A DNA stretch of 33,638 nt, from NCBI GenBank assembly GCA_017465545.1, contig JAFTVY010000052.1:1-33638 (forward strand). The letters run 5' to 3'. Source of the DNA: Ruminiclostridium sp. (GTDB lineage: Bacteria > Bacillota > Clostridia > Oscillospirales > Ruminococcaceae). The notes below the pieces were generated by a model. That model was not told where the DNA came from and did no database searches. It was given only the letters and a program-made list of their open reading frames with translations. Positions 27,131-33,454 of the stretch are shown here, in pieces. The position numbers and the translations under genes are program-made. The number at the start of each line of letters is the position of its first letter. Positions within the stretch are counted from its first letter, which is position 1.

Positions 27131-29119
27131 TTAATAAGCAGAAAAACCGAGTTCATCTAAACTGTAGCCAAAATTCCATCGCAGATAGTTGTTAACAGTT
27201 TCAAGCATGTGAGCAAGAACCTGATTATATCCTTCAGCTATGGTATCAGCTGATTCATTTACAGGCTCAGTATACACGTCATAATAAGTGAGACAATCGC
27301 CAGGCGCGTAGTCGGTACGGGAGAAGGTGCTTTCTGCAAGACACAGGTATCCGTTTTCTATATACATAGCCTCCAGATATATCTCGTCTTCATAAGGATA
27401 AAGATAGAAGCCCACAAGATATGCCGAGGTCTCATTATTAGCAGCGCCGATAAGAATATATATTGCCTTCTTGTCAACGTCATAAACCAAGGACGTAGCA
27501 CACTCTAAAGCCCATAAGTAATCTGTAGGAACGTCAAGGTAATAGTAACCGTCTTCACCCTTTTCCCCGTTCTTTATCAGATAATCAACAAGCTCGTAAT
27601 ATTTTCTTGATTCTGCCGTATAGGTATCTGTAGTAATCGTTGAGCTGAAGGAGCTATAGATCGTCTTTCCTGACACGTTCATATAAGCTCTTACACGTAC
27701 GCTGAACTTGTTATCCTTTAAAAGTCCCGTTACCCTATAGCTTGTATCGGTAGTTTTATACGTGTACCACTTACCGGACTTCAGCACCTGAACCTCATAT
27801 CCCGAAACGCCGGTAACCTTATTCCATCTAACTGTAAAGGAGCTTACAGAGCCTGACACCCACTCAAGACCTGTAGGAGCAGAAGGGGTTGCGGCAATAT
27901 ACATAACAGGACTGAACGTAGAGTACTTAGAACCATCATAGCTTCTTACCCTTATTTTATAGCTGGTATTTCTTGAAAGCTTTGAGAAGGTATAGCTGTT
28001 TTTTGTCACCTTATTATTTGTTACCCACTTGCCGTTCTTATATATCTGCACGCTGTAGCCTTTAGCACCTGAAACAGCATTCCAGCTTACGGTCGCAGAG
28101 GTGGACGTGTTTGACGTCTGCTTTATATTCTGGGGTATTGCGCTATCAACGGTCGTGCCGCTGACAGTAGACGTATAGCCTCCGTAATAAGCAACACCAC
28201 CGTTCATTTTATACGCTCTCATACGGAACTTGTAGGTAGTGCCACTGAACAGACCTTCTACCCTGTAGGTAGCGACTGTGCTATCCGTGAGCTTCTTTAT
28301 TCTTACCCACTTCGTACCATCGTACTGCTCTATAATATATCCGTCTGCAGAGCTGTTTTTAGTCCAGTTGAGGCGCAGGGCAGAAACCGCTCTTCCGCCT
28401 ATCTTAAGACCGCTTACAACAGAAGGGTTTGTGTATCCCGCTACAGCGTACGAATAATCGCCATAAACAGCCTTTGCTCCGCTTATGGTATATGCTCTTA
28501 TCCTGAACTGATACTTTGTGGAAGGCTCAAGACCTTCAATGCGGTAGGTGGTAGTCTGGTTATTTGTAAGCTTTTTAACTCTTGTCCACTTTGCACCATC
28601 GTATTTTTCTATAATATAGCCGTCCGCATCATTATATTTATTCCAGTTAAGGCGGAGAGCTGTGGAGGTTCTGCCACCTATGGAAGGCTTATCCATCTTT
28701 TTAAGCAAGGTTGTAGCTTCAACCACTTCGGAGTATTCACCGTAAACGTAAGCACCCGTGCTGCCCGTAAACATTCTTACCCTGAACTGCATCACTGTAC
28801 CGGAAGGGAGTGCCGACATATAGGCAAAATCCGAATTTTCATACGCTATGAAGTAGGTAATCCATTTTCCGTCAAGAAATACTTCAACCTCGGCACCATT
28901 GGCACCTTCGACTCTGTCCCATTGAAGAGAAACCGTTTTCTCCGTTACCTCGGCAACTCTGAGATTTGTCACAGCTAAAGAACTGCCTGTTGTCGATGCT
29001 GTAGCTAAAGCTTCTTTGTTTACGTTAACTGTGGTAACTTTATCCGCAAAAGCCGTCGAAGTACAAAGAACGGCTGTAAGCACAGCAGCAGAAACCACTG
29101 ATATTATTTTTTTCTTCAC
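27131..29119 (-). CDS. Secreted protein with five fibronectin type III domains
   Basis: This 662-residue exported protein starts with a typical signal peptide: KKK, a hydrophobic core, then cleavage after TSTAFA near residue 25. Five FN3 modules follow to about residue 500. Each starts with a Pro/Leu-rich strand and has a conserved Trp (SLQWDRV, LRLNWNK, LRLNWTK, VSWNAV, VRWNKV) and a YxFRIRAY-like strand. Modules 2 and 3 are close copies. The last ~160 residues are acidic, Tyr-rich and unlike FN3; I do not recognise them. There is no LPXTG or dockerin motif. A role in adhesion or wall association is only a guess. The GTG start at 29119 has GGAGG six bases upstream. Confidence 0.85.
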   Translation of the reverse strand: MKKKIISVVSAAVLTAVLCTSTAFADKVTTVNVNKEALATASTTGSSLAVTNLRVAEVTEKTVSLQWDRVEGANGAEVEVFLDGKWITYFIAYENSDFAYMSALPSGTVMQFRVRMFTGSTGAYVYGEYSEVVEATTLLKKMDKPSIGGRTSTALRLNWNKYNDADGYIIEKYDGAKWTRVKKLTNNQTTTYRIEGLEPSTKYQFRIRAYTISGAKAVYGDYSYAVAGYTNPSVVSGLKIGGRAVSALRLNWTKNSSADGYIIEQYDGTKWVRIKKLTDSTVATYRVEGLFSGTTYKFRMRAYKMNGGVAYYGGYTSTVSGTTVDSAIPQNIKQTSNTSTSATVSWNAVSGAKGYSVQIYKNGKWVTNNKVTKNSYTFSKLSRNTSYKIRVRSYDGSKYSTFSPVMYIAATPSAPTGLEWVSGSVSSFTVRWNKVTGVSGYEVQVLKSGKWYTYKTTDTSYRVTGLLKDNKFSVRVRAYMNVSGKTIYSSFSSTITTDTYTAESRKYYELVDYLIKNGEKGEDGYYYLDVPTDYLWALECATSLVYDVDKKAIYILIGAANNETSAYLVGFYLYPYEDEIYLEAMYIENGYLCLAESTFSRTDYAPGDCLTYYDVYTEPVNESADTIAEGYNQVLAHMLETVNNYLRWNFGYSLDELGFSAY

Positions 29120-29205
29120 AGTATACCTCCATTTGCCTGTATAATCGTTTGGTTTGTGTACGGCTAATAACAATTGAAATAAGAGTATAGTAACCGTCTA
29201 CGATT

Positions 29206-29538: not shown

Positions 29539-30792
29539 TCATTTGATTTTTCTTGCTTCGCAGTAGAATCTCTTATCGTGGGCGTGTCCCATTGAGAAGG
29601 TCTTTCTGGGTAATGCACCATCCTTTATAACTGTGGGGAAAAGCTCATCCTTTGTCATAGAGGGCAGTAAGAAGCCGATGCTGTTTTCCTTTTCACAAAG
29701 GCTCTTTACAACGTCGTCGCCGTGAATGTAGTCAATAACGCCCTTGTTTTCGGAAAGATACTTGTCAAGGAAGTTCTGAAGGCTACCTACCGTAAGGTTT
29801 GCGCCCTGCTTTGTGATAGTGAAGTCTACTTCTTCTCCGTTAAGAACCACCGTAAAGGTCTGTCCGTCAGTTCCCTTTACAAGTCCTAAAGCTTCGGTCA
29901 TTTCTGCCATCAGCTTATTTGTATCAACGTCTGTTATAACTCTGTGGATAGCTTCAAATTCAAGGGCGGGACTGTGAAGGTTTACCACCTCTGCAAGGGC
30001 AAATCTTGCAAGCTCTGTCTCAGGTGCGCCTGCCGCCTTCTTTTCCTCATAGCAAGCCTTTGCAGTAGCAAGAGAATGGTTTCCGTCGCCCATAGCATAT
30101 AACAGCACTTCTTCGTTTGTGAGTCCGTAACGGCTGTTGAAATCTGCCTTGTCGGAGAGCTTATCAAGAGCGTCAAAAACAGCCTTTGCATTTTCTCCGT
30201 CAACAAGGTAACCTTCAAGACGTCCGCCACCCTGCATAAGCTCAAAATCATAGAGCTTTGTAAGCTTATCAGTATTATTTTCAAGAGGCTCGATTACCGT
30301 CTTTTTAACGTCGTCGATAAGTATCATAATGTGGGGAAGCTCTAAAGAAGCGTCACGGCGGATCTTTACACGGGGCGGAATACGGCTTGCTACAGTAGCC
30401 TCGGTTGCTCTTACCTGGGAGGTGCTACCCTTGTTGTAATCGTACATTTCAAGGTCGATCGCACCTACAAGTCCCGTTCTCTTCTTGCCGTCTGCCTGAG
30501 TCCTTATCGTAAGTATAAGGCAGTCCTTATATTCGTTGAAAAGACCCTCTTTAAGGTACTTTTCCATTTCATTGTTGATAGCTTCAATTCTTGCTTCAGA
30601 GTCAGGCTCTTCAAGGTATACCTCAGGGAGAATAAGCTTTAAGCAGGAGGGACTGTCCCCTGCAATCTCCGCTGTCTTTTCCCAGTACTGAGGCTCGCTT
30701 GTGTACTGGTCGCAGGCTACTACCGCCCACTTGGTCATTTCTGCCTCGGAAAGCTTCGGAAGCAGTATATTTGCTTTTGTAAATGCTGTCAT
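29539..30792 (-). CDS. DUF1015 family protein
   Basis: This 417-residue cytosolic protein belongs to DUF1015. Seen are the N-terminal TKWAVVACDQYTSEPQYW segment, IPPRVKIRRDA, and the family's GDGNHSLATAK motif near residue 245, which corresponds to the DGHHR-like active-site motif of ParB/SerK-type folds. Some distant members phosphorylate free serine (SerK, SbnI), but this subgroup has no proven activity and no serine biosynthesis genes lie nearby. It begins 22 bp after the stop of the TIR gene behind AAAGGG, so the two are very likely cotranscribed. Function remains unknown. Confidence 0.85.
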   Translation of the reverse strand: MTAFTKANILLPKLSEAEMTKWAVVACDQYTSEPQYWEKTAEIAGDSPSCLKLILPEVYLEEPDSEARIEAINNEMEKYLKEGLFNEYKDCLILTIRTQADGKKRTGLVGAIDLEMYDYNKGSTSQVRATEATVASRIPPRVKIRRDASLELPHIMILIDDVKKTVIEPLENNTDKLTKLYDFELMQGGGRLEGYLVDGENAKAVFDALDKLSDKADFNSRYGLTNEEVLLYAMGDGNHSLATAKACYEEKKAAGAPETELARFALAEVVNLHSPALEFEAIHRVITDVDTNKLMAEMTEALGLVKGTDGQTFTVVLNGEEVDFTITKQGANLTVGSLQNFLDKYLSENKGVIDYIHGDDVVKSLCEKENSIGFLLPSMTKDELFPTVIKDGALPRKTFSMGHAHDKRFYCEARKIK

Positions 30793-30814: not shown

Positions 30815-33454
30815 TTACTGTGGCTTTGCGCCGTTTTTACTGAAATACATATTATAAAGCAGAATATCCGCTCTCACACTGTTATTCTGAGTAATCTTAA
30901 AGACTATCTGTTTTTTACCCTTCAGATCAAGCTCTATTGTCTGTGGCTCTGAATCAGAGGATATATCATAATACTCTTCAACTCCGTCAATGGCGATGCA
31001 TACCTCATTACCACCTTCAGCCGTTCCGTCAACCTTTGACATAGTGAGGCATAATTTTTCGTACTTGCCGTGATTGTATAAAGCAAATTCAGAGCCTGAA
31101 TATGCGTTAAGCACTATGCCCGTGTTATATTCCTTGCCTGATACCATAAACTTGTTATTCATATCATTGGAATAAATACCTGACTTTGAGCTCTCATAAG
31201 GAGCACAGTCTGTAGGAACGATTGCCATATCCGCATACTCGATTTTATCAACAACCGCTTCGGGACTCTTTCCGTTCTTTGCAAAATACGTATTGTAAAT
31301 AAGAATATCCGCACGGGAGGTGTTATTCTGATCTACCGCCAGCGTTATCTGCTTTACACCCTTGATGTTATATTCCATACTCAGCGGTACGGAGTACTTG
31401 CTCAGAACTATAGGCTGAAGCTCATTGCCATCAGCAATCACCCTGATATAGTTTTCTCCTTTATCGGTATTATCGCATTTTGCCGCCGTCAGATAAAGAG
31501 TTTCATAACCATCGTTATTTTCAAAAACAACGTAAGACGCCGCATAGGCATTCAATCGTATGCCTGTGTTATGCTCCTTGCCGAGGATAACACAGCTTTC
31601 ATTATAGTCGTTTACAAGAATAGTTGACTTATAGTTTTCATAAGGCTTCTTTTCAGAAGGTACCGCCACAAGATCGGGAAGCTTACTGTTATCTTCTACC
31701 TTCACTTCAGGCTTTTTACCGTTCTTTGCAAAATACATATTGTAAAGCAGGATATCCGCACGGGAAATATTATTCTGCTCAACAATAATTCTTATCTGCT
31801 TTGCACCTTTTATATCATATTCCATAGAAACAGGCGAAGAGAACTGCCCGAAGCTTATCGGCTCCAACTCTTTATCATCAGCGTAAATTCTGATATAGTT
31901 TTCGCCTCTGTCTGTGTTGTCTACCTTGCCCGCTGTAAGATAAAGAGTTTCGTAGCCGTCGTTATTATCAAAAATAACGTATGACTCCGTATAGGCATTC
32001 AGCAGTATGCCCGTGTTGTACTCCTTACCAAGAACTAAATAGGTTTTTTCATAGCTATTATCAAGTATTTCCGCTTTGTTATTTTCGTAGGGCTTCTTTT
32101 CAGAAGGAACTGCCACTAAATCGGCAGATTCACTTTCCTGAATGCTATCCTCTTGGATTGCTTCGCCATCCTTATAGAAGCATATATCCATTAAGGCAAT
32201 ATCAGCCCTTACCTCATTGCTTTGCAGAATAGCTATACGAAGACGACTTTTACCCGAAATATCATATTCTACAGTCTGCGGTGCAGAGAACTGATCTGTT
32301 TTTACGGCATTCAACTCCTTTTCATCCGCAAGAACACGGACAACGTTCTCGCCCTTTGCCGTATTATCGACTCTTGCTACGGTAAATTTCACCTTATCAT
32401 ATCCGTCACAGTTGAATATAACGTAGGATTCAGCGTAGGCATTAAGCACAATACCCGTATTATATTCCTTGCCGAGCACCATAAAGGATTCTTCATAGCT
32501 GTTTTCAAGTACCTTTGCATTGTTGTTTTCAAAAGGCTTGATATCAGGATAATACATTACGCCGTCAGAAACGGAGGTATTGCCGCCCTGGGAGAAGGAT
32601 GAATTTGCGCTTTCCATCGTACTTGATACGACTTTGTTATTTCCGCCTGAAAGAGATACTATCAGAACGATTAAAAGTATCACCGCCAGCAGAATACCAC
32701 CAGCTATAGCTATCATTTTTATTGGGAGAGGCTTTGCCGACGGGGTACTCGTTTCAGGCTTCACAGGTACGTTATTTACGGGAGTCTGCGCGGGTGCAGG
32801 GTTTCCCGAAGGTCTTCCGCCAGATGTCTTTGCGGATTCACCTTGTATCAATGATAAAGTCTCCACGGTGGTAGTCTTGTTAGAATCAAAAAAAGCGTCG
32901 ATTTCTTCCTTTGAGGTCACGCAATCTGTTACCGCTTTTTCGGTAGTACCCTGAGTGGTATAGACCACCTGCTGCTCTTCTTTTCTGTCGCCGTTATGTA
33001 TATGGGTGTTTATAGTTACGTTGTTAATTATGATTTTCGCATCCTCTTTACCTAACGCCTTATTGACGGAGGAGATAAGTGATTCAGTCTTAAAATCATT
33101 GTTGGCGATATCAACCGTTACCCACTGACTCGAAATCAGATAATATTTAAAGCCTGCCACAAGCTCAGTATTATCTATCTTATAAGGAATAATCGTTCTG
33201 GGATGATCGCTTCTTTCGTCGGCAAGAGCAAGCTCTCTTGCTACCTGAGGCGACTGTGCAGAATTTTCACTATATATTACGATAAAAACTCTTGATTCGC
33301 TGATAGCCTCTGTAATACTCGGCTGCCAATTTGCACCGCCTGAAATATCTCTGGGTGCTATCCAGCATTTAATACCGTTTGATTCAAGAGCATTGCAGAC
33401 CATATTTGCAATTTCTTCATCCTTTGTACTATAGCTTATAAAAACCTCTGCCAT
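30815..33454 (-). CDS. TIR domain - transmembrane - NPCBM-like repeat protein
   Basis: This 879-residue protein has an unusual domain order. Residues 1-~135 form a TIR domain (EVFISYSTKDEEIA, CWIAPRDI, and SPQVARELALA with the putative NADase Glu74). Residues 136-245 are a polar, Pro/Thr-rich linker. One membrane segment spans ~246-268 (KMIAIAGGILL onward) with Lys on its N-terminal side. Four repeats of about 149 residues follow (~301-432, 447-580, 596-729, 744-876). Each has GKE(Y/H)NTGI, a middle VDNT..GEN segment and a RADI end strand, like NPCBM/NEW2 β-sandwich carbohydrate-binding modules. There is no signal peptide, so TIR in the cytosol and repeats outside is the likely topology. TIR proteins often cleave NAD+; activity here is not shown. 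ATG start behind GGGAGG. Confidence 0.88.
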   Translation of the reverse strand: MAEVFISYSTKDEEIANMVCNALESNGIKCWIAPRDISGGANWQPSITEAISESRVFIVIYSENSAQSPQVARELALADERSDHPRTIIPYKIDNTELVAGFKYYLISSQWVTVDIANNDFKTESLISSVNKALGKEDAKIIINNVTINTHIHNGDRKEEQQVVYTTQGTTEKAVTDCVTSKEEIDAFFDSNKTTTVETLSLIQGESAKTSGGRPSGNPAPAQTPVNNVPVKPETSTPSAKPLPIKMIAIAGGILLAVILLIVLIVSLSGGNNKVVSSTMESANSSFSQGGNTSVSDGVMYYPDIKPFENNNAKVLENSYEESFMVLGKEYNTGIVLNAYAESYVIFNCDGYDKVKFTVARVDNTAKGENVVRVLADEKELNAVKTDQFSAPQTVEYDISGKSRLRIAILQSNEVRADIALMDICFYKDGEAIQEDSIQESESADLVAVPSEKKPYENNKAEILDNSYEKTYLVLGKEYNTGILLNAYTESYVIFDNNDGYETLYLTAGKVDNTDRGENYIRIYADDKELEPISFGQFSSPVSMEYDIKGAKQIRIIVEQNNISRADILLYNMYFAKNGKKPEVKVEDNSKLPDLVAVPSEKKPYENYKSTILVNDYNESCVILGKEHNTGIRLNAYAASYVVFENNDGYETLYLTAAKCDNTDKGENYIRVIADGNELQPIVLSKYSVPLSMEYNIKGVKQITLAVDQNNTSRADILIYNTYFAKNGKSPEAVVDKIEYADMAIVPTDCAPYESSKSGIYSNDMNNKFMVSGKEYNTGIVLNAYSGSEFALYNHGKYEKLCLTMSKVDGTAEGGNEVCIAIDGVEEYYDISSDSEPQTIELDLKGKKQIVFKITQNNSVRADILLYNMYFSKNGAKPQ

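Follow-up and report, generated by a model that had tools for sequence, protein, structure and literature searches.

A putative inverted Toll-like receptor from Ruminiclostridium with a TIR domain, a membrane helix and four NPCBM repeats

A minus-strand gene on contig JAFTVY010000052.1 of Ruminiclostridium sp. (assembly GCA_017465545.1; the whole 33,638-nt stretch analysed here is called the window) codes for a protein in which an N-terminal TIR domain is connected through one predicted membrane helix to four NPCBM repeats, domains of a sugar-binding type. The bacterium is from the ruminant gut. We put at about even the chance that this protein is a single-pass membrane receptor, reversed in its layout relative to a Toll-like receptor, with a TIR signal based on nicotinamide adenine dinucleotide (NAD). 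More tentatively, and at somewhat below an even chance, it may represent a large class of inverted Toll-like receptors in Clostridia, in which a constant TIR NAD+ hydrolase (NADase) and helix would be combined with exchangeable outer modules (CBM51 arrays, leucine-rich repeats (LRRs), MORN, RCC1, proteases and others), extracytoplasmic contact would be turned into a cyclic ADP-ribose-type messenger read or erased by RyR-domain and DHH proteins, and the outermost repeats would be traded between species under diversifying pressure. What is new here is the TIR-helix class, together with its link to RyR and the exchange of its repeats.

Domain structure and membrane topology

A sequence-only reading of the window had described an N-terminal TIR, one hydrophobic segment and four NPCBM-like repeats without a signal peptide, and this anatomy was confirmed by Pfam and hydropathy: a single membrane helix is predicted, and no leader was found ahead of the TIR. 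It should be kept in mind that helices and leaders were predicted by a scripted hydropathy rule, not by a trained predictor. The TIR_2 match has an E-value of 1e-22 (81.4 bits, cut-off 28), and the NPCBM family was matched in four stretches at 93.9 bits (cut-off 23.9). The repeats have a predicted CBM51 fold, as judged from a model of repeat R2 compared structurally by VIA-align, so that their NPCBM-like nature is supported by both family and fold. The linker between TIR and helix is weakly conserved, with 38-78% amino-acid identity among orthologues.

Lys and Arg residues were counted in the 15 residues ahead of the helix and after it. They are more numerous ahead of the helix in 38 of the 39 genus members with the same plan, the remaining one being a tie. 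The same holds outside the genus, for 12 of 13 members in other Clostridia, again with one tie; net charge is biased in the same direction in all 39 genus members. Wherever an NPCBM protein that we read carries a signal, NPCBM is on the outer side. Because of this charge bias, and because NPCBM relatives carry export-type leaders (identified by eye), the TIR is very likely inside and the NPCBM repeats outside the cell, with a single pass through the membrane, in agreement with the orientation that the sequence-only reading had proposed.

Exchange of ectodomains across the TIR-helix class

Ectodomains are exchanged across the TIR-helix class. TIR_2 matches above the cut-off occur in 40 of the 71 genomes of the genus, and 92 of these 93 matches were read (one had no fetched locus; six below the cut-off were excluded). 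The plan, which we defined as an N-terminal TIR, one hydrophobic helix at positions 120-450 and at least 60 residues after the helix, fits 39 of the 92 genes. Their ectodomains form 13 BLAST clusters, including five single proteins, and cluster representatives match NPCBM, LRR_4/LRR_8, BspA-type LRR_5, MORN, DUF6273, Trypsin_2, RCC1_2 and InlB-type repeats in Pfam, with one lipocalin-like match and several representatives belonging to no family. InlB-type repeats and BspA-type LRRs are usually extracellular. Three members of the plan are found in the window genome itself: the NPCBM protein, an LRR protein (L003) and a DUF6273 protein (L002). In an even sample of the class Clostridia, a TIR-profile match was present in 69 of 291 genomes; 29 loci from these genomes were read besides the window's own, and 13 fit the plan, with ectodomains that by eye are DUF6273-like, LRR or trypsin-like, one LRR being confirmed by Pfam.

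The full TIR-helix-NPCBM layout was recovered beyond the window as well, with orthologues in 4 of the 71 species of the genus, the window's included, and a further protein, L139, from another genus. The latter matches TIR in Pfam with an E-value of 8e-22 and the repeat profile in three stretches (best E-value 5e-15), its Pfam NPCBM score of 23.2 bits being slightly below the cut-off of 23.9. When 52 TIR domains were placed in a tree, those of the MORN and NPCBM receptors came together in a group of 11 (support 100/99). Inside this group, the NPCBM receptors cluster with a tandem paralogue from genome G021 that has a different ectodomain (100/97), and with L139 (94/81), whose long branch makes its placement less sure.

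At L068 (G016:C6:136500-144500), three TIR-helix genes stand in tandem; their TIRs are alike and their Thr-rich or InlB-repeat ectodomains differ, a local expansion. Two TIR-helix-LRR genes have the following neighbours, assigned by eye: two small WXG100-like proteins in L113 (G000:C85:1500-13500), and in L115 (G068:C3:250000-264000) an HNH-like toxin accompanied by a SUKH-like immunity gene. The LRR relatives L064 and L067 lie among housekeeping-like genes.

Association with RyR and DHH genes

RyR-domain genes were found in 12 of the 71 genus genomes, all of them among the 40 that bear a TIR, and in none of 14 control genomes. All 9 genomes that encode NPCBM- or MORN-type receptors have such a gene, against 3 of the 62 others (Fisher's test, 3e-9, or 8e-7 when one NPCBM genome represents the four). 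In the class sample, a TIR-profile match was found in 18 of 21 genomes with RyR versus 51 of 270 without it (6e-10), and in 9 of the 10 genomes whose short RyR gene gave a strong match (E-value 1e-29 or better); all of these association tests are uncorrected for kinship, and the class-level TIR set includes more than membrane forms.

An RyR or DHH gene lies within 700 bases of 8 of the 39 genus TIR-helix genes (RyR in three cases, DHH in five), versus 2 of 53 other TIR genes (p = 0.013). RyR is situated directly upstream of the TIR-helix-MORN genes in L117, L021 and L023, two genes upstream in L116, and directly upstream of the TIR-helix-LRR genes in L156 and L159. DHH directly adjoins the MORN receptor gene in L116 and DUF6273-type receptor genes in L030, L031, L033, L034 and L158, and it is found 6 bases downstream of the TIR-helix-NPCBM gene L139. 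These assignments are confirmed by Pfam for RyR in L116, L117 and L182 and for DHH in L116 and L139, the others being made by tblastn to the confirmed ones or with the RyR model. Neither RyR nor DHH was found by tblastn beside the window gene or its three close orthologues; each of these four genomes has a single RyR gene, on another contig, that of the window genome being L182. Two proteins encoded upstream of stand-alone RyR genes, one bearing RyR by Pfam (L159:3-1145) and one Rossmann-like by eye (L172:3-1184), are possible further receivers of a signal.

Phage RyR-domain proteins are described in a 2026 preprint (PMC13232231) as cleaving or sequestering 2′ and 3′ cyclic ADP-ribose (2′cADPR and 3′cADPR), the signals of Thoeris. 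Three of the ligand residues named there, His, Trp and Asp, have the same spacing in all 21 RyR stretches compared, whereas the fourth, also a His, is present in 4 of them and replaced by Thr or Ser in 17.

Candidate catalytic residue of the TIR domain

In an alignment of 17 TIR domains, a chosen set with 5 from orthologous loci and 12 from relatives with other ectodomains, residues F5, S7, L23, G27, G40, E74 and A78 are invariant. The profile built from it has SARM1 NAD+ hydrolase structures as its top match (E-value 1.3e-21), and the E74 column pairs with the Glu of the SARM1 WVHKE stretch, which we take to be the catalytic Glu. Glu74, singled out by the sequence-only reading, is thus supported as a catalytic-type residue. 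On its own, the window TIR has only weak similarity to solved TIRs (best E-value 0.078), and four residues ahead of the Glu it has Gln at the position of the SARM1 Trp. Judged from these alignments, NAD+ cleavage by the TIR is plausible.

Two allele types of the distal repeats

Comparison of the window gene with its orthologues in genomes G024, G033 and G021 yields different relationships along its length. The window TIR is 99% identical to that of G024 and 81% to those of G033 and G021. The identity of R3 and R4, respectively, is 98% and 98% between G024 and G033, 80% and 84% between the window and G021, and 44-60% between these pairs. Informative sites uniting the window with G024 and with G021 number 38:2 in the TIR, 40:4 in the linker, 12:0 in helix and stalk, 22:5 in R1, 10:31 in R2, 0:76 in R3 and 1:132 in R4. 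As read from these site counts, the two halves of the gene have contradictory histories, with the changeover in R1-R2. The adjoining DUF1015 gene exhibits no strong preference (14, 25 and 19 sites for the three possible splits).

The two types have also diverged widely at the four-fold sites of R3-R4, about as much as the proteins, and we therefore interpret the pattern as exchange or import of old alleles; for the same reason, positive selection on R3-R4 is not claimed. A chimera produced in assembling the tandem repeats retains some residual chance, but the presence of each distal allele type in two separate genomes speaks against it.

Other NPCBM proteins of the genus and family

NPCBM matches were obtained in 10 of the 71 genus genomes, and seven proteins were read besides the four orthologues. 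L108 has a signal-peptide-like leader (by eye), a Big_2 domain and NPCBM; L109 appears from its leader, judged by eye, to be an NPCBM lipoprotein; L105, L106 and L111 have an N-terminal zinc-ribbon-like stretch (labelled by Pfam in L105, under the cut-off in L106 and by eye in L111), then one helix and NPCBM; L110 is a Ser/Thr kinase followed by a helix, TPR and two NPCBM domains (Pfam); and L107 is a partial NPCBM protein. A role of NPCBM as part of a glycosidase was considered and rejected: six of the seven were scanned with Pfam and yielded no glycosidase match at an E-value of 0.01, and the seventh, L111, was judged by eye.

Among 297 genomes of the wider family, 10 match the repeat profile, the window's own included, and a further 10 proteins were read, with leaders, kinases and dockerins labelled by eye. 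Besides L139, these comprise four arrays of tandem NPCBM repeats, each with a leader and a dockerin-like end (L140, L141, L144 and L145; the hydropathy rule detects a leader only in L141), an NPCBM lipoprotein (L148), a helix-NPCBM protein (L146), a broken one (L142) and two kinase-like proteins with a helix and NPCBM (L143 and L147). The four arrays, in which no catalytic domain was recognised by eye, are possible parts of cellulosomes. In the kinase proteins L110, L143 and L147, the same outer module is attached to another cytoplasmic signalling domain.

Genomic context of the orthologous loci

The four orthologues come from draft assemblies, three of them being the metagenome-assembled genomes Oscillospiraceae SIG529, RGIG2157 (goat colon) and RGIG8806 (water deer colon). 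In these three, a peptidase gene lies about 120 bases upstream (LysM-G5-M23 by Pfam in L045) and the DUF1015 gene 22-38 bases downstream, a second TIR-helix gene being inserted between the orthologue and DUF1015 in SIG529. DUF1015, probably a housekeeping gene, adjoins the TIR-NPCBM gene, or in one case the tandem TIR copy, in all four loci. Beyond DUF1015 in the window, on the same strand (27131-29173), lies a gene whose product begins with a leader-like stretch and contains five fibronectin type III domains (Pfam).

Table 1. Features of the TIR-NPCBM gene and its downstream neighbour in the window
Feature	Position	Strand	Basis
Gene for 879-aa protein (TIR, membrane helix, four NPCBM)	30815..33454	-	
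TIR domain, Pfam TIR_2, residues 4-115	33110..33445	-	
Glu74 codon, candidate catalytic residue	33233..33235	-	17-TIR alignment and SARM1 alignment
Linker, residues 141-245	32720..33034	-	
Single predicted membrane helix, residues 246-268	32651..32719	-	hydropathy
NPCBM repeat R1, residues 295-428	32171..32572	-	
NPCBM repeat R2, residues 443-576 (repeat modelled)	31727..32128	-	
NPCBM repeat R3, residues 592-725, two allele types among orthologues	31280..31681	-	
NPCBM repeat R4, residues 740-873, two allele types among orthologues	30836..31237	-	
DUF1015 gene, 22 bases downstream of the TIR-NPCBM gene	29539..30792	-	

By eye, no defence genes or defence island were recognised near the window locus or its orthologues, and no ThsA among the window open reading frames (the contig has 184 bases upstream of the gene) or within 14-23 kb around the three orthologues; nor were AP-ATPase/TPR and caspase neighbours recognised by eye near the orthologues, where no gene-by-gene scan was made. 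The Thoeris family models stayed below their cut-offs, with 14.8 bits for ThsB_TIR (cut-off 21.2) and 14.1 for ThcB4 (cut-off 220). Known defence systems were rejected as an explanation: PADLOC matches beyond an E-value of 0.001 span only the TIR, and NCBIfam matches are far below cut-off. An origin from mobile elements was likewise rejected, with one plasmid and one phage record, both matching only the TIR part. The phage record, labelled Bacteriophage sp. (L191, MT836910.1), appears by eye to be a bacterial contig with ilvC- and ilvN-like genes; its gene row reads TIR-helix-DUF6273-like, DHH-like and M23-like.

Proposed mechanism and alternatives

In the receptor that we favour, the TIR would reside in the cytoplasm, the helix would cross the membrane, and the four CBM51-fold repeats would form an outer stalk binding a surface ligand, such as a cell-wall, capsule or plant glycan or a glycosylated structure of a phage or competitor. 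Binding or clustering of the ligand would gather the TIR domains, and the assembled TIRs would then cleave NAD+, yielding an ADP-ribose-type signal or an NAD+ drain; the RyR-domain and DHH-phosphoesterase proteins that accompany receptors of this kind may bind or remove the signal. We infer the ligand, the assembly, the NADase activity, the second messenger, the role of DHH and the biological purpose, for which defence and envelope sensing appear about equally likely.

An abortive-infection receptor, with outer repeats that bind a phage tail or a rival's surface and a TIR that destroys NAD+, is possible, if on the unlikely side. Bacterial TIR domains are known in defence, and such a role would suit the catalytic-type Glu, the swapping of distal repeats between species on a protein whose TIR half has another history, and the toxin-like or WXG100-like neighbours of two of the four LRR relatives in the genus (L113 and L115). 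It fits less well with the housekeeping-like surroundings of the other two (L064 and L067), the lack of recognised defence genes near the window locus, the absence of a match across any whole known system, and the single plasmid and phage records limited to the TIR part. Patchy presence in the genus and allele exchange in the distal repeats suit a gene for conflict or recognition better than an envelope or glycan housekeeping sensor, akin to the PASTA kinases, that would detect glycans of fibre or of the cell's own wall and use the TIR to tune an NAD or nucleotide signal in ordinary physiology, with no part in defence. We consider a sensor of this kind fairly unlikely, although the three orthologues with upstream sequence sit between an M23 peptidoglycan peptidase gene and DUF1015, and NPCBM also occurs behind a helix on Ser/Thr kinases and, by eye, in secreted-looking arrays that end in dockerin-like stretches.

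The weak similarity of the window TIR (P0001) to solved chains and its Gln in place of Trp would be compatible with a non-enzymatic domain acting as a scaffold for other TIR proteins, as in animal Toll-like receptors. This is distinctly unlikely, given the invariance of the Glu in 17 TIRs and the co-occurrence of RyR genes, whose family includes proteins acting on ADP-ribose signals; it is mainly because of the RyR association and the kept RyR ligand residues that an enzymatic, signal-making TIR is preferred. NPCBM fusions to TIR and to kinases in conflict systems have been proposed by Kaur et al. (2021; PMC8195603) to sense invaders inside the cell, and a cytosolic sensor of this type, with both parts inside and the hydrophobic segment serving only as an anchor, would be very improbable here. 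One long helix with consistent charge bias points to a membrane pass, and so do the export-type leaders, recognised by eye, that NPCBM relatives carry within the genus and the family. The swapped-in ectodomains include InlB-type repeats and BspA-type LRRs, whose usual place outside the cell also argues for the transmembrane receptor.

Comparison with known systems

To our knowledge, those bacterial TIR proteins whose function has been worked out are intracellular sensors of infection. If a transmembrane class is real, bacteria can couple contact on the outside directly to NAD-based signalling, as animals do with Toll-like receptors, and may thus possess upside-down Toll-like receptors of their own; the trading of outer repeats among gut species would be in keeping with an arms race over recognition. 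This raises the questions of how the protein is oriented, what the repeats bind, whether NAD is lost or cyclic ADP-ribose made, and whether cellular RyR proteins are receivers or erasers.

The window protein shares the TIR fold and Glu with Thoeris ThsB and other bacterial TIR NADases, and RyR-type partners would fit an ADP-ribose signal. Thoeris TIRs, however, are cytosolic and paired with a separate effector, and none was recognised beside the window gene. PASTA-type membrane Ser/Thr kinases likewise have an N-terminal cytoplasmic signalling domain, one helix and tandem outer repeats; here TIR replaces the kinase and NPCBM replaces PASTA, and kinase-helix-NPCBM relatives exist in the same family (L110). 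The CBM51 modules known from glycosidases and from a peptidase (2vmg, 2vng and 7jrm) are 12-14% identical to the window repeats, but the window protein, unlike those enzymes, has no catalytic partner domain.

The fusions that Kaur, Iyer, Burroughs and Aravind described in 2021 (PMC8195603) resemble the window protein in combining TIR and NPCBM in one chain, and a Ser/Thr kinase version, represented here by L110, exists as well. They are associated with actinobacteria and with AP-ATPase and caspase neighbours and are interpreted as intracellular, whereas the window protein has a helix between TIR and NPCBM, tandem repeats and a clostridial host, and no AP-ATPase or caspase neighbours were recognised by eye. 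The suggestion of the sequence-only reading that this exact logic is undescribed must therefore be narrowed, since TIR-NPCBM fusions had been reported and the NPCBM form is one of 13 ectodomain clusters in the genus. For the wider class of bacterial TIR-membrane-ectodomain receptors, including TIR with LRR, MORN or DUF6273, we found no report in the open-licence literature, which is weak evidence of absence: in the accessible portions, a 2020 TIR survey describes single-span TIR receptors for animals only (PMC7075850), Kaur et al. (2020) describe other membrane-proximal conflict systems (PMC7159879), and two further papers describe no membrane-spanning bacterial TIR receptor (PMC11249213, PMC13142454).

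With animal Toll-like receptors, the window protein shares a single pass, outer recognition repeats and an inner TIR, the one helix between TIR and outer repeats being predicted from hydropathy. It differs from them in that the TIR is N-terminal, not C-terminal, and has no leader, the repeats are NPCBM and not LRR, and the catalytic-type Glu is kept; the likeness is one of layout, and no common ancestral receptor is claimed. The layout of its sister proteins with LRR ectodomains, including L003 of the window genome, comes closer still to that of a Toll-like receptor.
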